A stretch of 64,000 nt of DNA, from contig JALHQO010000005.1 of NCBI GenBank assembly GCA_022841905.1, positions 1-64,000 of the forward strand, in the 5' to 3' direction. The notes under the pieces are model-generated. The model was not told the DNA's origin, did not search any database, and saw nothing but the letters and a program-made list of their open reading frames with translations. Position 1 is the first letter of the stretch; the number at the start of each line of letters is the position of its first letter. A program made the translations under genes and the position numbers. Positions 38,624-45,458 of the stretch are shown in pieces. Source of the stretch: Hyphomonadaceae bacterium (lineage in GTDB: Bacteria; Pseudomonadota; Alphaproteobacteria; Caulobacterales; Aquidulcibacteraceae).

Positions 38624-39760
38624 ATGGGATTTGCATCACGCGCGGCGCGTTTCGGCCTTTTGGCCATGGCCTCAGTGGCGGCGATCACCACCCCGATCGC
38701 GACGCCCGCGGCATGGGCCGGGCCGCGCATCAAGGATGTCGCCGACTTTGAAGGCGTCCGCGAGAACCAACTCGTGGGCTATGGACTGGTTGTCGGCCTC
38801 GCCGGCACCGGAGATTCTTTGCGAAACTCGCCGTTCACGCGCCAAAGCTTGGCGGCGATGCTCGAGCGGCTGGGCGTCAACGCCGCCGAAGGCAATTTGA
38901 ACACTCGCAACGTCGCCGCCGTGATGGTGACCTCGAACCTGCCGCCGTTCGCCAGCCAAGGCTCGCGCATCGATGTAACGGTGTCTGCCCTCGGCGATGC
39001 ACGCAGCTTAGCCGGCGGCCAGTTGCTGGTGACGCCGCTCATGGGCGCGGATCAACAGATTTACGCGGTCGCGCAAGGCGCGCTGGCGATTGGCGGCTTC
39101 TCCGCTGCAGGCGCTTCCGGTTCTTCGGTGACGCGCGGCGTGCCGACTGCCGGCCGCATCGCTTCCGGCGCGCTGGTCGAGCGCGAGATTCCATTCGATA
39201 TCGCAGGCCAAAGCGAATTGCGCTTGGCGCTGCGCAATCCCGATTTCACCACAGCTCAGCGCATCGCGCAGGCGATCAACAATGTCGTTGGCGCTGGCAC
39301 GGCGCGGCCGGCCAATCCGGGCACCGTGATCCTAACGCGCCCCGCCGCTTATGCCGGCGACATGGTGGCGTTGATCAGCGCCATCGAAAATCTCGAAGTC
39401 GAGGTCGATACGGCGGCGCGCATCGTCATCGATGAAAGCTCCGGCATTGTCGTCATGGGCGAAAACGTGCGCGTTTCCACCGTTGCGATCGCGCAGGGCA
39501 ATCTCACCATCTCGATCCAGGAAGATCCGTTCGTCAGCCAGCCCGAACCGTTCTCGCGGGGCGAGACGGTGGTCGTGCCGTCCACCACCGTCGATGTCGA
39601 AGAAGAAGCCGGTGGGCTAGTCGTGGTGCCGGGCGGCGTGCCGCTTCGGCAGTTGGTCAACGGCCTGAACGCACTCGGCGTCACGCCACGCGACATGATC
39701 TCGATCCTGCAGGCGCTGAAAGCCGCCGGCGCGATCCAAGCCGAAATCGAAGTGATGTAG
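38624..39760 (+). CDS. flgI: Flagellar P-ring protein FlgI
   Basis: Periplasmic protein of 378 residues that polymerises around the rod in the peptidoglycan layer. Signal peptide to about residue 32 (TPAAWA cleavage), then the conserved start RIKDVADFEGVRENQLVGYGLVVGLAGTGD and the C-terminal TLRDLISALQ-like block DMISILQALKAAGAIQAEIEVM. Requires FlgA for assembly. First gene of the flgI transcript; its TAG stop is immediately followed by the next ATG. Confidence 0.96.
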   Translation: MGFASRAARFGLLAMASVAAITTPIATPAAWAGPRIKDVADFEGVRENQLVGYGLVVGLAGTGDSLRNSPFTRQSLAAMLERLGVNAAEGNLNTRNVAAVMVTSNLPPFASQGSRIDVTVSALGDARSLAGGQLLVTPLMGADQQIYAVAQGALAIGGFSAAGASGSSVTRGVPTAGRIASGALVEREIPFDIAGQSELRLALRNPDFTTAQRIAQAINNVVGAGTARPANPGTVILTRPAAYAGDMVALISAIENLEVEVDTAARIVIDESSGIVVMGENVRVSTVAIAQGNLTISIQEDPFVSQPEPFSRGETVVVPSTTVDVEEEAGGLVVVPGGVPLRQLVNGLNALGVTPRDMISILQALKAAGAIQAEIEVM

Positions 39761-40120
39761 ATGACAGACGCGATCTCCCTCGCCGGCGCGCCGCTGCCGA
39801 TCAGCACCGCTACGCGTGGTCACGGGCCCCGCGACGCTGGAGCACCAGTGCCCCCCGAGGTGCGGCGCGCGGCGGAAGAGTTCGAGGCGGTGTTCCTCTC
39901 GGAGATGCTGGCCCCGATGTTCGAGGCGCTCGATACCGACGGGCTCGGCGGCGGCGGTACGGGCGAACAGATTTTCCGGCCGATGCTCGTCGAACGCTAC
40001 GCGGAATCGATTGCGCGCTCCGGCGGCGTGGGCATCGCCGATAGCATCGTGCGCGAACTGATGCGGCTGCAGGAAGCCGTCATTGTCGAACCGGAGGCCG
40101 CCGATGGCGCTGCTGGCTGA
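39761..40120 (+). CDS. FlgJ-type rod-binding protein (rod-capping domain only)
   Basis: Protein of 119 residues corresponding to the N-terminal rod-cap domain of FlgJ: AAEEFEAVFLSEMLAPMFEAL and the FRPMLVERYAESIARSGGVGIADSIVRELMR segment. The muramidase domain of enterobacterial FlgJ is absent, as usual in alphaproteobacteria, where a separate lytic enzyme does that job. ATG 39761 abuts the flgI stop, and the C terminus overlaps the next gene by 17 bases. Confidence 0.9.
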   Translation: MTDAISLAGAPLPISTATRGHGPRDAGAPVPPEVRRAAEEFEAVFLSEMLAPMFEALDTDGLGGGGTGEQIFRPMLVERYAESIARSGGVGIADSIVRELMRLQEAVIVEPEAADGAAG

Positions 40121-40547
40121 CGACGCGCGCGATCGCGCCGCGCAATTGCTGCTTATCACCGAACGGCTCAGCGCTTTGATCACGGCGGAGACGCAGCGCA
40201 TCGAGGCGCGCCTGCCCCCGCTTGAAGGCGCCGAGGCGGAAGAGAAAACGCGGCTCGCCAACGCCTATCGGCTGGAGCTGACGCGCATCAAGCACGACCG
40301 CAGCCTGATCGAAGGCGCAAGCCCGGAAACGCTCACCAAACTGCGCTCGGCGACCGAGACGCTCCACGTCGCCATGGCGGCGCACGAGACGGCACTCAAC
40401 GCGGTCAAGGTAATCAGCGAGGGCCTCGTTCACGCCATGGCGGAGGAGATCGCACGGCTGCGCGGCGGCGAGACCGGCTATCAGGCCAGCGGCAATCTCG
40501 CGGCTGCGAGCGGCCCGATGCCGACGGTGATCGATAAGAGCGCTTAA
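40104..40547 (+). CDS. FlgN/FlbY-like flagellar protein
   Basis: Protein of 147 residues that is entirely helical by composition (RDRAAQLLLITERLSALITAETQRIEARLPPLEG, EEKTRLANAYRLELTRIK). The position after flgI and flgJ, size and helix pattern fit the FlgN-like export chaperones (FlbY in Caulobacter) for hook-associated proteins; I cannot prove it from sequence. ATG 40104 has CCGGAGG six bases upstream and overlaps the end of the rod-binding gene by 17 bases; an earlier ATG at 40083 lies deeper inside it. Confidence 0.78.
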   Translation: MALLADDARDRAAQLLLITERLSALITAETQRIEARLPPLEGAEAEEKTRLANAYRLELTRIKHDRSLIEGASPETLTKLRSATETLHVAMAAHETALNAVKVISEGLVHAMAEEIARLRGGETGYQASGNLAAASGPMPTVIDKSA

Positions 40548-40584: not shown

Positions 40585-40659
40585 CGCCTTTCCTGTAATT
40601 CATCTTGCTCTACGGCGTCACAGCCGGTTCTGTATGTGCGGCTGCGGTCCGGGACAAAG

Positions 40660-41898
40660 ATGAGGCATACGAAGGTATCGAGCGCTTGGCGCCCGGTGGG
40701 GGCGCGTCGCGGCGCATCTGCGCCGCAAGGGATCATCGGCGCACTCGTGTTTAACGTGTGCATGCTGGTGCTCGCCGTCGCCAGCGCCTTCGCAGTCCTG
40801 ATCATCGGCCGCGATCACCTCTACGCTTACGAATACTCCGAAGCCGGCGCGCGCGTGATTTCGGCCCGGGTCGAAGAGCTCAACGCCGAATTGATCCAGC
40901 TCGATTTTGACCGCTACCGCCAGTGGGACGACCTGATCGCGCTCGAACTGATGTCAGGCGACATCGCAGCGGCTCGCGGCTTCATGCTGTCGGGGCGCGA
41001 AATGCTGCCGCCGCGCTACGCCAATGTGCTGCGTCGCACGAATGACGACGCCGAGATGGAACTCGCCGGGCTTGAACTGCTAACGCCAGGAACGCGGGCG
41101 CGTTACGAAGAGCGCGTGCCCCTGCTCTCGCGCCGGGCTGAGAGCGTGGCCGCCGTAACAGAGCGCGTGACGCCGAATTTCGTCGGCGACGCCGATGATT
41201 TCGAACTGATGGCGCGGGCGCTTATCGCCGAGCCCTCCACCGATACGCTGCAGTTCATCCTGACCGGCTTCAGCCTTGGGCTAGCCGGCGATTTCGGCCC
41301 GGAGGCGACCACCGGTGCGGTGGCGCTGCTGATCGCCAGCCGGCGGACCGACTATCCGGCCGCGTTCGGCGCCGAGATCGAGACGTTGCTGAACGAGGCG
41401 CTCCCCGTCGAAGCCTTCCGCACCGCGGCGATGGCGGGCAGCGAAGACCCTGGCGCGTTCGCCAACGCAGCGGCCGCGTTCCGCTCTGTCGCCGACACCG
41501 CGCGCGCGGAACAAGTGCGCGAAGCCTTGGCCTCGCTAGGCGCCGTGAGCGACGCGACATCGCCAAGTGCGGCCGTCGATTTCATCACCCACGCGACCGC
41601 CCTGCGGGATCTGCCGCGCTTGCGTTTGGTGGCGCAAGCCGCGGGCGAACGCGCATCGGCGGCGGCCAAGCGCCTGCCGCGCGACGGGCGCTTGCTGGAA
41701 GCGGCGCGCGGTGACCTGCGCATCACCCGCGAACTCGCGATCGCGCTCGCGGCGGCGGGCGCAGCGCTGGCCGGCCTGCTGCTCATCCTCGGCATCAAGG
41801 GTTATCAAGCCGGGCGCCGGATTTGGCGGCGGATGCAGGATGACGATTACGGCAGCGAATTGGTCGATATCGGCGCCAGCAATTGGCGCCCGCTCTGA
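40660..41898 (+). CDS. Hypothetical two-pass membrane protein in the flagellar region
   Basis: Protein of 412 residues with an N-terminal membrane helix (GALVFNVCMLVLAVASAFAVL, about 25-48), a 320-residue exported alpha-rich domain (helical-repeat-like, rich in Ala, Arg and Glu; the FSLGLAGDFGPEATTG and RRTDYPAAFGAEIETLLNEAL segments look repeated in style), and a C-terminal membrane helix (LAIALAAAGAALAGLLLILG) with a charged tail. Family not recognised. ATG 40660 chosen; an in-frame GTG lies at 40636. Stop abuts that of the flagellin-like gene, so the two are convergent. A flagellar or envelope role is only contextual. Confidence 0.78.
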   Translation: MRHTKVSSAWRPVGARRGASAPQGIIGALVFNVCMLVLAVASAFAVLIIGRDHLYAYEYSEAGARVISARVEELNAELIQLDFDRYRQWDDLIALELMSGDIAAARGFMLSGREMLPPRYANVLRRTNDDAEMELAGLELLTPGTRARYEERVPLLSRRAESVAAVTERVTPNFVGDADDFELMARALIAEPSTDTLQFILTGFSLGLAGDFGPEATTGAVALLIASRRTDYPAAFGAEIETLLNEALPVEAFRTAAMAGSEDPGAFANAAAAFRSVADTARAEQVREALASLGAVSDATSPSAAVDFITHATALRDLPRLRLVAQAAGERASAAAKRLPRDGRLLEAARGDLRITRELAIALAAAGAALAGLLLILGIKGYQAGRRIWRRMQDDDYGSELVDIGASNWRPL

Positions 41899-42630
41899 TC
41901 AGGCCCTGAACAGGGTCAGCACAGCTTGCGGTTCGGCGTTGGCGATGGCCATGCCGCCAGCTTTCTCGAGCCCCTGACGCACCTGCAACGCAAGCAACCG
42001 CGCGCTGTCAGCGTCGAGATCAGTGCGCACGCTGGCGGCTTCCGCGGCGCCGAGAAAACCTTGATGCGCCTCCAGCGAGCGCACGGAATCGAGCAGCCGC
42101 GTCATCGCATCCTGGAGCTTTTCCATCGAACGCTGCACAGCTTGCGGCAGCTCAGCGTCAGCAACTTCAGCCTCTGACGACACCGCCATCACATCATCCG
42201 CGCTCGGCTCGGCCTTCAGACGCAGATCGACACCGTCAATGGTGACGGAGGCCGCGCCTGGTTCGGCTTGCACGCTGACCGTCCCGCCCGCAACGAGTGT
42301 TGCGCCTCGGCCGATCGCAGCTTCCAGGCGTTCCGCAAACGCGCTCAGCGCCGCGTCGAGATCAGCTTGTGAACCGCTCTTGGCCGCGGCTTGCACCTGC
42401 ACCAGCATGGCTTGCGCTTCATGCCCCAGCGCCAACGCTTCCTGCACATGCGCCAAGCCAGCGCGCACGCTTTCGCGGGACGAGGCCAGTGACGCGCCGC
42501 TCAGCTCGACGCTATCGCCTGGCGTAGGCATTTCGCGACGTTGCGGCGCTGCGCCATTGGCGCGCGCCATACGCTGATCGACGCCGAGCGCATTTGCGCC
42601 CGTCGCACCTGGCATGATGCTGGAAACCAT
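41899..42630 (-). CDS. Truncated flagellin-like protein
   Basis: Protein of 243 residues. Its C terminus (DLDADSARLLALQVRQGLEKAGGMAIANAEPQAVLTLFR) matches the flagellin D0/D1 end of the neighbouring flagellin (VDADLAKESARLQALQVKQQLG...IANSAPSIVLSFFR). An internal part (AQAMLVQVQAAAKSGSQADLDAALSAFAERLEAA) follows flagellin D1. The N-terminal D0 helix is missing; in its place is a Pro/Met/Ala-rich stretch (residues 1-45). AAGGAG stands 9 bases before ATG 42630. It is downstream of a perfect CtrA box and a 5'-UTR hairpin. Minor flagellin, cap/adaptor or regulator are possible. Confidence 0.8.
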   Translation of the reverse strand: MVSSIMPGATGANALGVDQRMARANGAAPQRREMPTPGDSVELSGASLASSRESVRAGLAHVQEALALGHEAQAMLVQVQAAAKSGSQADLDAALSAFAERLEAAIGRGATLVAGGTVSVQAEPGAASVTIDGVDLRLKAEPSADDVMAVSSEAEVADAELPQAVQRSMEKLQDAMTRLLDSVRSLEAHQGFLGAAEAASVRTDLDADSARLLALQVRQGLEKAGGMAIANAEPQAVLTLFRA

Positions 42631-42661
42631 AGAGCCTGCTCCTTCGGATCGCGCGTCCCAA

Positions 42662-44377: not shown

Positions 44378-44389
44378 GTCCTTCTGGAC
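44378..44389 (-). promoter_or_regulatory. Hairpin over the flagellin ribosome-binding site
   Basis: GTCC-AGAA-GGAC on the minus strand folds into a short stem that contains the AAGGA ribosome-binding site. FlbT is known to bind the 5' leader of Caulobacter flagellin mRNA and control its stability and translation; flbT is encoded nearby. The stem is only 4 bp, so this is suggestive. Confidence 0.4.
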
Positions 44390-44564
44390 TTGTGTTGAAC
44401 CGGCCATTTTAGCCAGCTGAGCGTTGCCGCCCGATCCGCACGGAATTCTCCGCACGCCCTCCCCCGCCAAGGGTTAGACGCTTTGCGTTGCCGGTATTTC
44501 TACGGATTGAGGGTTAATATTGCGTCAGCGCCGAAACGATTCTTGCTAGGCAATTAGTGCCCAG

Positions 44565-44912
44565 TTAGCGAAGCGCGAGGCCTTCCATCATGGTGCGGTT
44601 TATGTCGATCAATGGCTCGACATCGGCGCCTTCGCGCAGCACCTGACTCGAATAGCGCGACACCCAAAGCGCCAGCGAGATGATCTGGCCGCGCAACGCC
44701 ATCGGCAATTGGTTCTCCGGCGCTGAGCAATCGGCCGAGAGCAGATTCCAAAGCCTGCGGTTGGATTCAAGCGCCTCGGCGACGAGCGCCGGGGCGGGTT
44801 TTTCATCCTTGATGCGCAGGAGCGCGGCCGTCGCTTGGCCGAAGGCGCGATATTCCAGGTCGCGCGGTTGCTCAGCCTGTGTGGCCGCGCGCTGGTACGC
44901 TTTGATCGACAT
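44565..44912 (-). CDS. flaF: Flagellin biosynthesis regulator FlaF
   Basis: Protein of 115 residues; FlaF is required for flagellin synthesis or secretion and acts against FlbT. Family pattern IKAYQRAATQAEQPRDLEYRAFGQATAAL at the N terminus and LISLALWVSR-like ISLALWVSRYSSQVL at the C terminus. ATG 44912 lies inside flbT (the genes overlap by 41 bases), so translation is coupled. A 193-base gap separates it from flagellin. Confidence 0.92.
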   Translation of the reverse strand: MSIKAYQRAATQAEQPRDLEYRAFGQATAALLRIKDEKPAPALVAEALESNRRLWNLLSADCSAPENQLPMALRGQIISLALWVSRYSSQVLREGADVEPLIDINRTMMEGLALR

Positions 44913-45303
44913 GCCCAAGCCCCAAGCGCTCGGCCTCAAACGTGATGAGTTTCCGGCAGCGCATCAATGCGCGGTAATATTCCCCGCCCATTACTTCTTT
45001 GGAAACGCCGATACATTCTGCGAGCACCGCTGGATCGCGCACCGCGCCCATGAACTCGGCCAGGCGGGCAGCGAACTCGGCATACGCCTTCTCGCGGCCC
45101 ATCTCGTCGAGATACATGAGCATGATGGGGAAGTAGATCCGTTTGGCGGGCGTGTCGGCCTCGTCCGCCTGCATGATGTCCTTTTCGCGCAGCACCGAGG
45201 CCTTGTTCTGCAGAACAAGCGCGGCGCGCCGGTCGCCGTTTTGCACGACCGCCCCGTTGACGACGAATTTCTCGCCCGGGCGCAGGGACAACTTCAGTGG
45301 CAT
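44872..45303 (-). CDS. flbT: Flagellin mRNA-binding regulator FlbT
   Basis: Protein of 143 residues that binds the 5' UTR of flagellin mRNA and promotes its degradation until the hook is complete (known in Caulobacter). Family start MPLKLSLRPGEKFVVNGAVVQNGDRRAAL is intact. ATG 45303 follows AGGAGAGGG; an in-frame start 48 bases earlier is unnecessary. First gene of flbT-flaF. Confidence 0.92.
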   Translation of the reverse strand: MPLKLSLRPGEKFVVNGAVVQNGDRRAALVLQNKASVLREKDIMQADEADTPAKRIYFPIMLMYLDEMGREKAYAEFAARLAEFMGAVRDPAVLAECIGVSKEVMGGEYYRALMRCRKLITFEAERLGLGHVDQSVPARGHTG

Positions 45304-45458
45304 GAGGCCCTCTCCTCCCGCTTCTGGGAGTCCATCGGGTGTAAGAGTCACGCCTTCAGGTTAACGAGATGTTGCGCGCGGCGCCGCGCGGGCCTTATTG
45401 CTGGCTCGAAACATCGGGCGCGCCGAGCGCGCCGAGACGAAATGTATTGGGAGCTCAG

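Follow-up and report, generated by a model that had tools for sequence, protein, structure and literature searches.

The window analyzed here is a stretch of 64,000 nucleotides from a Hyphomonadaceae bacterium (contig JALHQO010000005.1). On its reverse strand, a gene for a 243-residue protein, hereafter the short gene, lies 493 bases from the gene of a 415-residue flagellin, with a gene for a 98-residue FlaG-like protein in between (Table 1). A second Flagellin_C match in the genome falls on an FlgL-like gene beside a flgK-like ORF (L093; named by inference).

Table 1. Features of the flagellin locus (window coordinates; ND0 and CD0, N- and C-terminal D0)
Feature	Position	Strand	Basis
flgI, FlgJ-like rod-binding protein and 154-residue protein; far side of the conserved cassette	38624..40547	+	Pfam, conserved loci
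Conserved 420-residue protein (p420), convergent with the short gene	40636..41898	+	no Pfam or NCBIfam match
Short gene: flagellin paralogue without ND0, 243 residues	41899..42630	−	ORF with ATG start
Short protein 161–242, D1 C-terminal helix and CD0	41905..42150	−	BLASTP, invariant columns, AlphaFold2 model
Short protein 48–107, D1 N-terminal helices	42310..42489	−	phmmer, orthologue alignment, low-confidence model
Short protein 1–45, ND0 replacement: Pro/Ala-rich, predicted unstructured, GD.VELS motif	42496..42630	−	orthologue alignment, pLDDT about 29–41
Shine-Dalgarno AAGGAG of the short gene	42639..42644	−	read from sequence
CtrA box TTAA-N7-TTAAC (palindromic), 97 nt ahead of the short start codon	42712..42728	−	motif scan
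FlaG-like protein, 98 residues	42765..43061	−	weak FlaG matches below cut-off
Structural flagellin, 415 residues	43124..44371	−	Flagellin_N and Flagellin_C; no other structural flagellin found in the genome
Leader element of the flagellin mRNA, two hairpins followed by GUCC-AGAA-GGAC	44378..44451	−	leader alignment, covariation, covariance model
GTCCAGAAGGAC hairpin with the flagellin Shine-Dalgarno inside	44378..44389	−	leader alignment, RNAalifold, folding
Central hairpin of the leader element, 6-bp stem, AAAAY loop	44400..44416	−	5 of 6 pairs changed on both sides
FlaF	44565..44939	−	PF07309, 2.7e-33
FlbT	44872..45351	−	PF07378, 2.6e-44

These genes form a conserved cassette. Among 16 loci that carry the short gene on about 10 kb or more of sequence (the window, L031, L032, L034–L040 and L047–L052), flgI, the rod-binding gene and the gene for the 154-residue protein (p154) are present in all. 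L035 is the only one without p420 (15 of 16) and L040 the only one without flagellin, flaF and flbT (15 of 16), while the FlaG-like gene is missing from both L032 and L040 (14 of 16). In L051 (4657–6498, genome G053) the flaF and flagellin frames are both split, perhaps by sequencing errors. p154 (window 40083–40547, forward strand), encoded after the rod-binding gene in all 16 cassettes, matches nothing in Pfam or NCBIfam; its place suggests an export chaperone. By eye, p420 has hydrophobic segments at both ends, and a similar-looking p420-like ORF, also named by eye, occurs in family f2 (L070, 8809–10113). The position of p420 beside flgI presumably recalls that of Caulobacter PflI.

Sequence Comparisons

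Neither Flagellin_N nor Flagellin_C (Pfam) matches the short protein at E ≤ 1, whereas the neighboring flagellin, included as a control, matches both (5e-31 and 6e-17). The protein therefore lies below the two thresholds by which a bacterial flagellin is recognized. The NCBIfam flagellin C-terminus model does match it at 8.6e-4, under the curated cut-off, while the FlgL family and FliD_C (Pfam) give no match. Direct comparison is more informative: BLASTP aligns residues 124–242 with the neighboring flagellin (E = 2e-9), with 34% identity over residues 121–242, and a phmmer search of the PDB gives Caulobacter FljL (9cem) as best match (E = 3e-4), with residues 44–242 of the short protein aligned to 57–272 of FljL. 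Since this alignment spans both halves of D1 and CD0 and leaves ND0 out, it confirms at the level of sequence what the initial annotation had read from this gene, namely a predicted flagellin relative with a D1-like middle and CD0 but without ND0.

An AlphaFold2 model built from three input sequences has a mean pLDDT of 48 and the helix order D1–hairpin–D1–CD0, with helices at 48–85 and 88–107 and no confident structure in the first 47 residues. This predicted order fits D1 plus CD0 but is no proof of it. Foldseek searches with the model returned flagellins or flagellin complexes as the best 22 PDB rows, none at E ≤ 0.001. Residues 161–242 contain 10 of the 14 columns that are invariant among 30 orthologues (H189, D204, A210, R211, L212, A214, L215, Q219, L238 and F241). 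The ribosome-binding site noted earlier is present, and GGAG precedes most orthologues of the gene. At the N-terminus, 36 of 38 orthologues begin with MV and 23 of 38 with MVSSI.

Relatives of the short protein were sought in 60 genomes of the window's family and in 298 genomes of its order (an even draw from a larger group), the order-wide search using a 30-row profile. We found 38 true relatives in six genera, all within the window's family: 29 of 30 genomes of the window's genus, four of g3, two of g14, and one each of g9, g10 and g11. These score at E ≤ 2e-37, and the next matches start at 4e-28. Among the matches listed, nearly all of this second group are flagellin-sized frames, those retrieved are full flagellins, and two smaller frames of 214 and 244 residues start at contig edges. 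The one genome of the window's genus without the gene is G045, where the flagellin runs up to the edge of a contig of 3,174 bases.

All 38 orthologues lack ND0 (identical proteins were left out of the comparison; L031, L032 and L047–L052 repeat other loci), and none with a full ND0 was found. The claim that the N-terminal D0 has been replaced thus holds throughout the group, and a local frameshift or a wrong start codon is rejected as its cause. A protein of the FljJ type has both terminal D0 helices; the short protein has one. Because ND0 is missing we class it neither as a flagellin nor as FljJ proper. Over 10 pairs of genes dN/dS is 0.05–0.16, mostly looser over the first 45 residues. The short gene, present in 38 genomes of six genera, is under purifying selection and not in decay, as had been argued from its own expression signals.

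Phylogeny and Gene Order

The short gene follows the FlaG-like gene. This slot has a counterpart in other families: in f4 (6 of 6 loci examined: L065–L069 and L072) and in f2 (L071) the order is structural flagellin or flagellins, FlaG, and then a divergent full-length flagellin, so that in these seven loci the place of the short gene is held by an FljJ-like flagellin. Placement in the FlaG slot as a mark of the FljJ type is a rule drawn here from f4 and f2 loci, and "FljJ-like" in these families denotes position and divergence and not a named Caulobacter FljJ sequence. The counterparts of the 98-residue FlaG-like gene pass the PF03646 cut-off in all seven loci. The genes flbT and flaF stand at the cluster head in L065–L068, L070 and L072, and fall outside the stretch examined in L046, L069 and L071. 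L046 (g12, in the window's family) has the same order with a middle ORF that has no Pfam match, and in L070 (f2) no FlaG gene precedes the third, divergent flagellin, which has p154, the rod-binding gene and flgI on its other side. Five divergent flagellins tested (L046, L058, L065, L070 and L071) exceed the cut-offs of Flagellin_N and Flagellin_C. Identity of the third flagellin to the others is 56–61% in L066, L067 and L069, compared with 71–88% among those others; the three other f4 loci were left out of this comparison (third or other flagellins filtered off).

For phylogeny, flagellins of fewer than 260 residues, those with masked letters and identical sequences were dropped. In trees of the D1 and CD0 region, all short proteins fall into a single clade with support of 100. 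A careful tree of 50 of the 102 rows, with 10 of the 22 short rows and the longest-branched sequences left out, sets the short proteins and the FljJ-like flagellins apart from the structural flagellins (98/99). Forcing the short proteins to group with their own structural flagellins makes this tree 10.9 log units worse, which the AU test does not reject (p = 0.16). In the quick tree of all 102 rows the same constraint gave p = 0.59 and a slightly better likelihood; since constrained trees scored better, the quick tree was not taken at face value. At 16 diagnostic columns the residues of the short protein have a mean frequency of 0.11 in FljJ-like and 0.23 in structural flagellins and so do not decide the matter, leaning slightly to the structural side; the comparison restricted to structural flagellins of its own family is biased by profile breadth. 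We conclude that the short protein is a positional counterpart of FljJ, not a proven orthologue, and probably a descendant of the FljJ type; the AU test (p = 0.16) does not exclude descent from the neighboring flagellin.

That the gene is a duplicate of this neighbor that drifts after loss of ND0 is very improbable: the AU test leaves the required grouping possible, but a gene kept in 38 genomes at dN/dS 0.05–0.16 (10 pairs) with its promoter and place conserved does not behave like one adrift, and the identity to the neighbor over residues 121–242 is merely 34%.

The short gene is also distributed by flagellin copy number. Of 60 genomes in the window's family, 38 gave a single ND0-bearing match and 22 gave two or more; 35 of the former carry the short gene, versus 3 of the latter (G023, G030 and G050). 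The single-match genomes without it are G045 (the contig end described above), G029 (marginal match only, probably no flagellin) and G014, which encodes a 115-residue protein with CD0 only, adjoining a p420-like ORF. Kinship accounts for much of this pattern.

CD0-only proteins were seen in two places. In a single-flagellin g4 genome, L042 (3774–4133, reverse strand) encodes a 115-residue protein that looks disordered at its start and resembles flagellin only in its CD0-like C-terminus, with a p420-like ORF as neighbor; no CtrA box was found at this gene even when one mismatch was allowed. In g2, proteins of about 124 residues next to flagellin clusters (L043 6537–6977, L045 6588–6995 and L063 4969–5376) combine a 15-residue flagellin-like start with a CD0 end, so that CD0-only derivatives of flagellin apparently arose there independently.

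Promoter and Leader RNA

The CtrA box reported ahead of the short gene is the only exact TTAA-N7-TTAAC site in the 64 kb (expected 0.02; the palindrome reads on both strands). It recurs upstream of all 38 short genes, exactly in 35 and with one mismatch in 3, mostly 89–106 nt ahead of the start codon (extremes about 65 and 136). In a control scan of the 250 nt ahead of neighboring genes, with partly redundant rows, the exact box was found before 1 of 24 flagellins and before none of 21 FlaG-like genes (p98), 17 flaF, 11 flbT, 35 p420, 7 flgI, 8 rod-binding or 16 p154 genes. It is likewise absent before 6 of 6 FljJ-like genes of f4, three of which are preceded by sigma54-like sites. In Caulobacter, CtrA is reported to promote FljJ (PMC7591256), whereas a review lists all six flagellin genes as RpoN-dependent (PMC3930126). 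Together with the f4 sites, this statement implies that the promoter type is not common to the short gene and those relatives. The pattern used detected no sigma54-type motif before the window's flagellin, and RpoN is present in the genome.

The flagellin mRNA, and not that of the short gene, has a structured leader. An alignment of 20 flagellin leaders contains, just 5′ of the start codon, a GGGC/GCCC hairpin, a second one with a 6-bp stem and an AAAAY loop, and GUCC-AGAA-GGAC around the Shine-Dalgarno sequence. For the model we kept 31 of 32 leaders, those carrying [GT]TCCAGAAGG[AG] (L037 was left out). Since the leaders were chosen by the TCCAGAAGG motif, the constancy of that stretch is partly a product of selection; this does not apply to the covariation seen in the other hairpins. 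In the 31 leaders 95.6% of cells pair and 8 of 14 pairs have double-sided changes; such changes amount to 28 cells versus 5.6 in shuffles (0 of 500), and slid structures collapse. RNAalifold recovers the last two hairpins unaided. The window's flagellin leader folds at −28.1 kcal/mol (z −2.9) versus z −0.5 for the leader of the short gene, and Rfam gives no match to the flagellin leader at E ≤ 1.

The covariance model was searched at E ≤ 1 in 73 source entries, and a match was counted if it lay on the same strand and ended 0–60 nt ahead of a start codon. In f4, which lies outside the model-building set, 13 of 14 structural flagellins match versus none of 6 FljJ-like genes (Fisher 2e-4, with rows that are not independent), several of these matches being individually weak (E 0.01–0.75). 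The corresponding counts are 1 of 3 and 0 of 2 in f2, and 1 of 33 and 0 of 11 in the multi-flagellin genera of the window's family. Flagellins of the genomes with the short gene plus g4 match in 10 of 11 cases, most of them used in the model, and none of the 38 short-gene leaders matches at E ≤ 1. Thus, in two families of the order the element goes with structural flagellins, and one weaker match, in L070, adds a third (f2). Outside the window, 3 of 28 matches fell elsewhere than in flagellin leaders. This genome holds one strong copy (2e-12); the next match (C2, 22 bits, E = 0.015) is antisense within a long ORF and was judged to be chance. A second exact TCCAGAAGGAC in the genome lies, by eye, inside an rpoB-like coding sequence.

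Discussion

The primary study of FljJ is reportedly that of Ardissone et al. (2020), said to describe a regulatory flagellin that acts as FlbT co-repressor. Caulobacter FljJ is described as a divergent paralogue, with 49% identity, by which translation of the other flagellins is controlled; it binds FlbT and cannot build a filament alone, and its secretion lifts the repression (PMC7591256, PMC9812332). FlbT itself is reported to bind flagellin leaders (PMC4347634, PMC3930126).

The short protein combines a presumed early drive by CtrA, a predicted inability to polymerize, an mRNA without the leader element and a cluster with FlbT and FlaF, which is the profile expected of an FljJ-type co-repressor. 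We therefore lean, if only slightly, toward reading it as a putative co-repressor of this type that has lost its polymerizing half, and as a functional counterpart of FljJ. Counting against this reading are the promoter type not shared with the FljJ-like genes of f4, the few leader matches in the multi-flagellin genera (1 of 33) and f2 (1 of 3), and the proposal that Brucella FlbT is an activator (PMC4347634).

According to this proposal, CtrA would switch the short gene on early, alongside the basal-body genes, and the D1/CD0 part of the product would join FlbT to hold the flagellin mRNA, through its leader element as the presumed target, in a nontranslated state. Once the hook-basal body is ready, FlaF, presumably by way of CD0, would pass the short protein to the export gate, and the unstructured N-terminus would serve as export signal. 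Emptying the cytoplasm of the protein would then release flagellin translation. Loss of ND0 would mean that the protein cannot pack into the filament and is left as a pure checkpoint signal.

Like the short protein, FljJ is a divergent flagellin paralogue whose genome also encodes FlbT and FlaF, and its expression is reported to be promoted by CtrA (PMC7591256); by inference, it also shares the slot in the flagellin cluster and the lack of a leader element. In contrast, FljJ is treated as a complete flagellin that is built into the filament beside the hook, whereas the short protein lacks ND0 in all 38 genomes, begins with a new, unstructured stretch and has one structural flagellin as its likely target. 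With bacterial flagellins (PF00669 and PF00700) the short protein shares D1/CD0 homology and the C-terminal ARL.AL and IAN motifs, but it lacks ND0, stays under both Pfam thresholds and has no room for D2/D3. Vibrio FlaE and FlaF also appear to be flagellin homologues outside the filament, though these are reported to be excreted and to act in biofilms (PMC6692518, PMC8998449). A literature search that stopped short of full texts returned no regulatory flagellin without ND0.

FlgM is a secreted anti-sigma factor, an inhibitor made early whose export tells the cell that the hook-basal body is complete. The proposed logic of the short protein would be alike, with FlgM acting on a sigma factor and the short protein putatively on translation.

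A decoy would account for part of the same evidence. Here CD0 would occupy FlaF or the export gate and so limit early export of flagellin, with translation untouched. Most of the invariant residues fall in CD0 and the stretch ahead of it, the CD0-only proteins of g4 (L042, 115 residues) and g2 (about 124 residues) look as if CD0 were the working part, and FlaF is reported to bind all six Caulobacter flagellins (PMC7591256). But this leaves unexplained why the leader element sets structural genes apart from FljJ-like ones and why D1 has been retained under selection in 38 genomes, and we regard it as unlikely.

The initial annotation had also offered a cap, an adaptor or a length control. As a secreted structural accessory, the protein would dock by way of D1/CD0 and be unable to extend the filament. 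FliD_C was not found in this genome, the FlaG-like gene is adjacent, and FljJ is reported to be the hook-proximal flagellin in Caulobacter (PMC7591256). However, FliD_C was equally undetected in the Caulobacter control, so the absence of FliD leaves no special gap for the short protein to fill, which weakens the case for a cap by default. A cap would also be needed in the multi-flagellin genera of the window's family, yet of the 22 genomes with two or more ND0 matches, 19 have no short gene. To our knowledge, the known caps and junction proteins retain both D0 helices, a further point against a structural role. Nothing specific in support of length control or a cap emerged, and such an accessory seems quite improbable. 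From the same annotation, the suggestion of a protein that binds the partners of flagellin survives best as an FljJ-like regulator of translation; its placement in the filament core does not.

Conclusions

More broadly, and more tentatively than for the co-repressor itself, we suggest that a flagellin may have been turned into a translational checkpoint protein by shedding its polymerizing half, in a series from FljJ-like through D1–CD0 to CD0-only forms. It would act on a covarying leader element common to Caulobacterales-like families and specific to structural flagellins, a proposal that falls a little short of an even chance in our estimate.

If correct, the short protein would amount to a naturally occurring separation-of-function form of a regulatory flagellin. 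Should it still work with FlbT, ND0 would be dispensable for co-repression and export, and incorporation into the filament would lie outside the signal. The covarying leader element offers a defined RNA on which FlbT can be tried, and with one structural flagellin instead of six, these bacteria would provide a simpler system to study how an mRNA is freed when a protein is exported.
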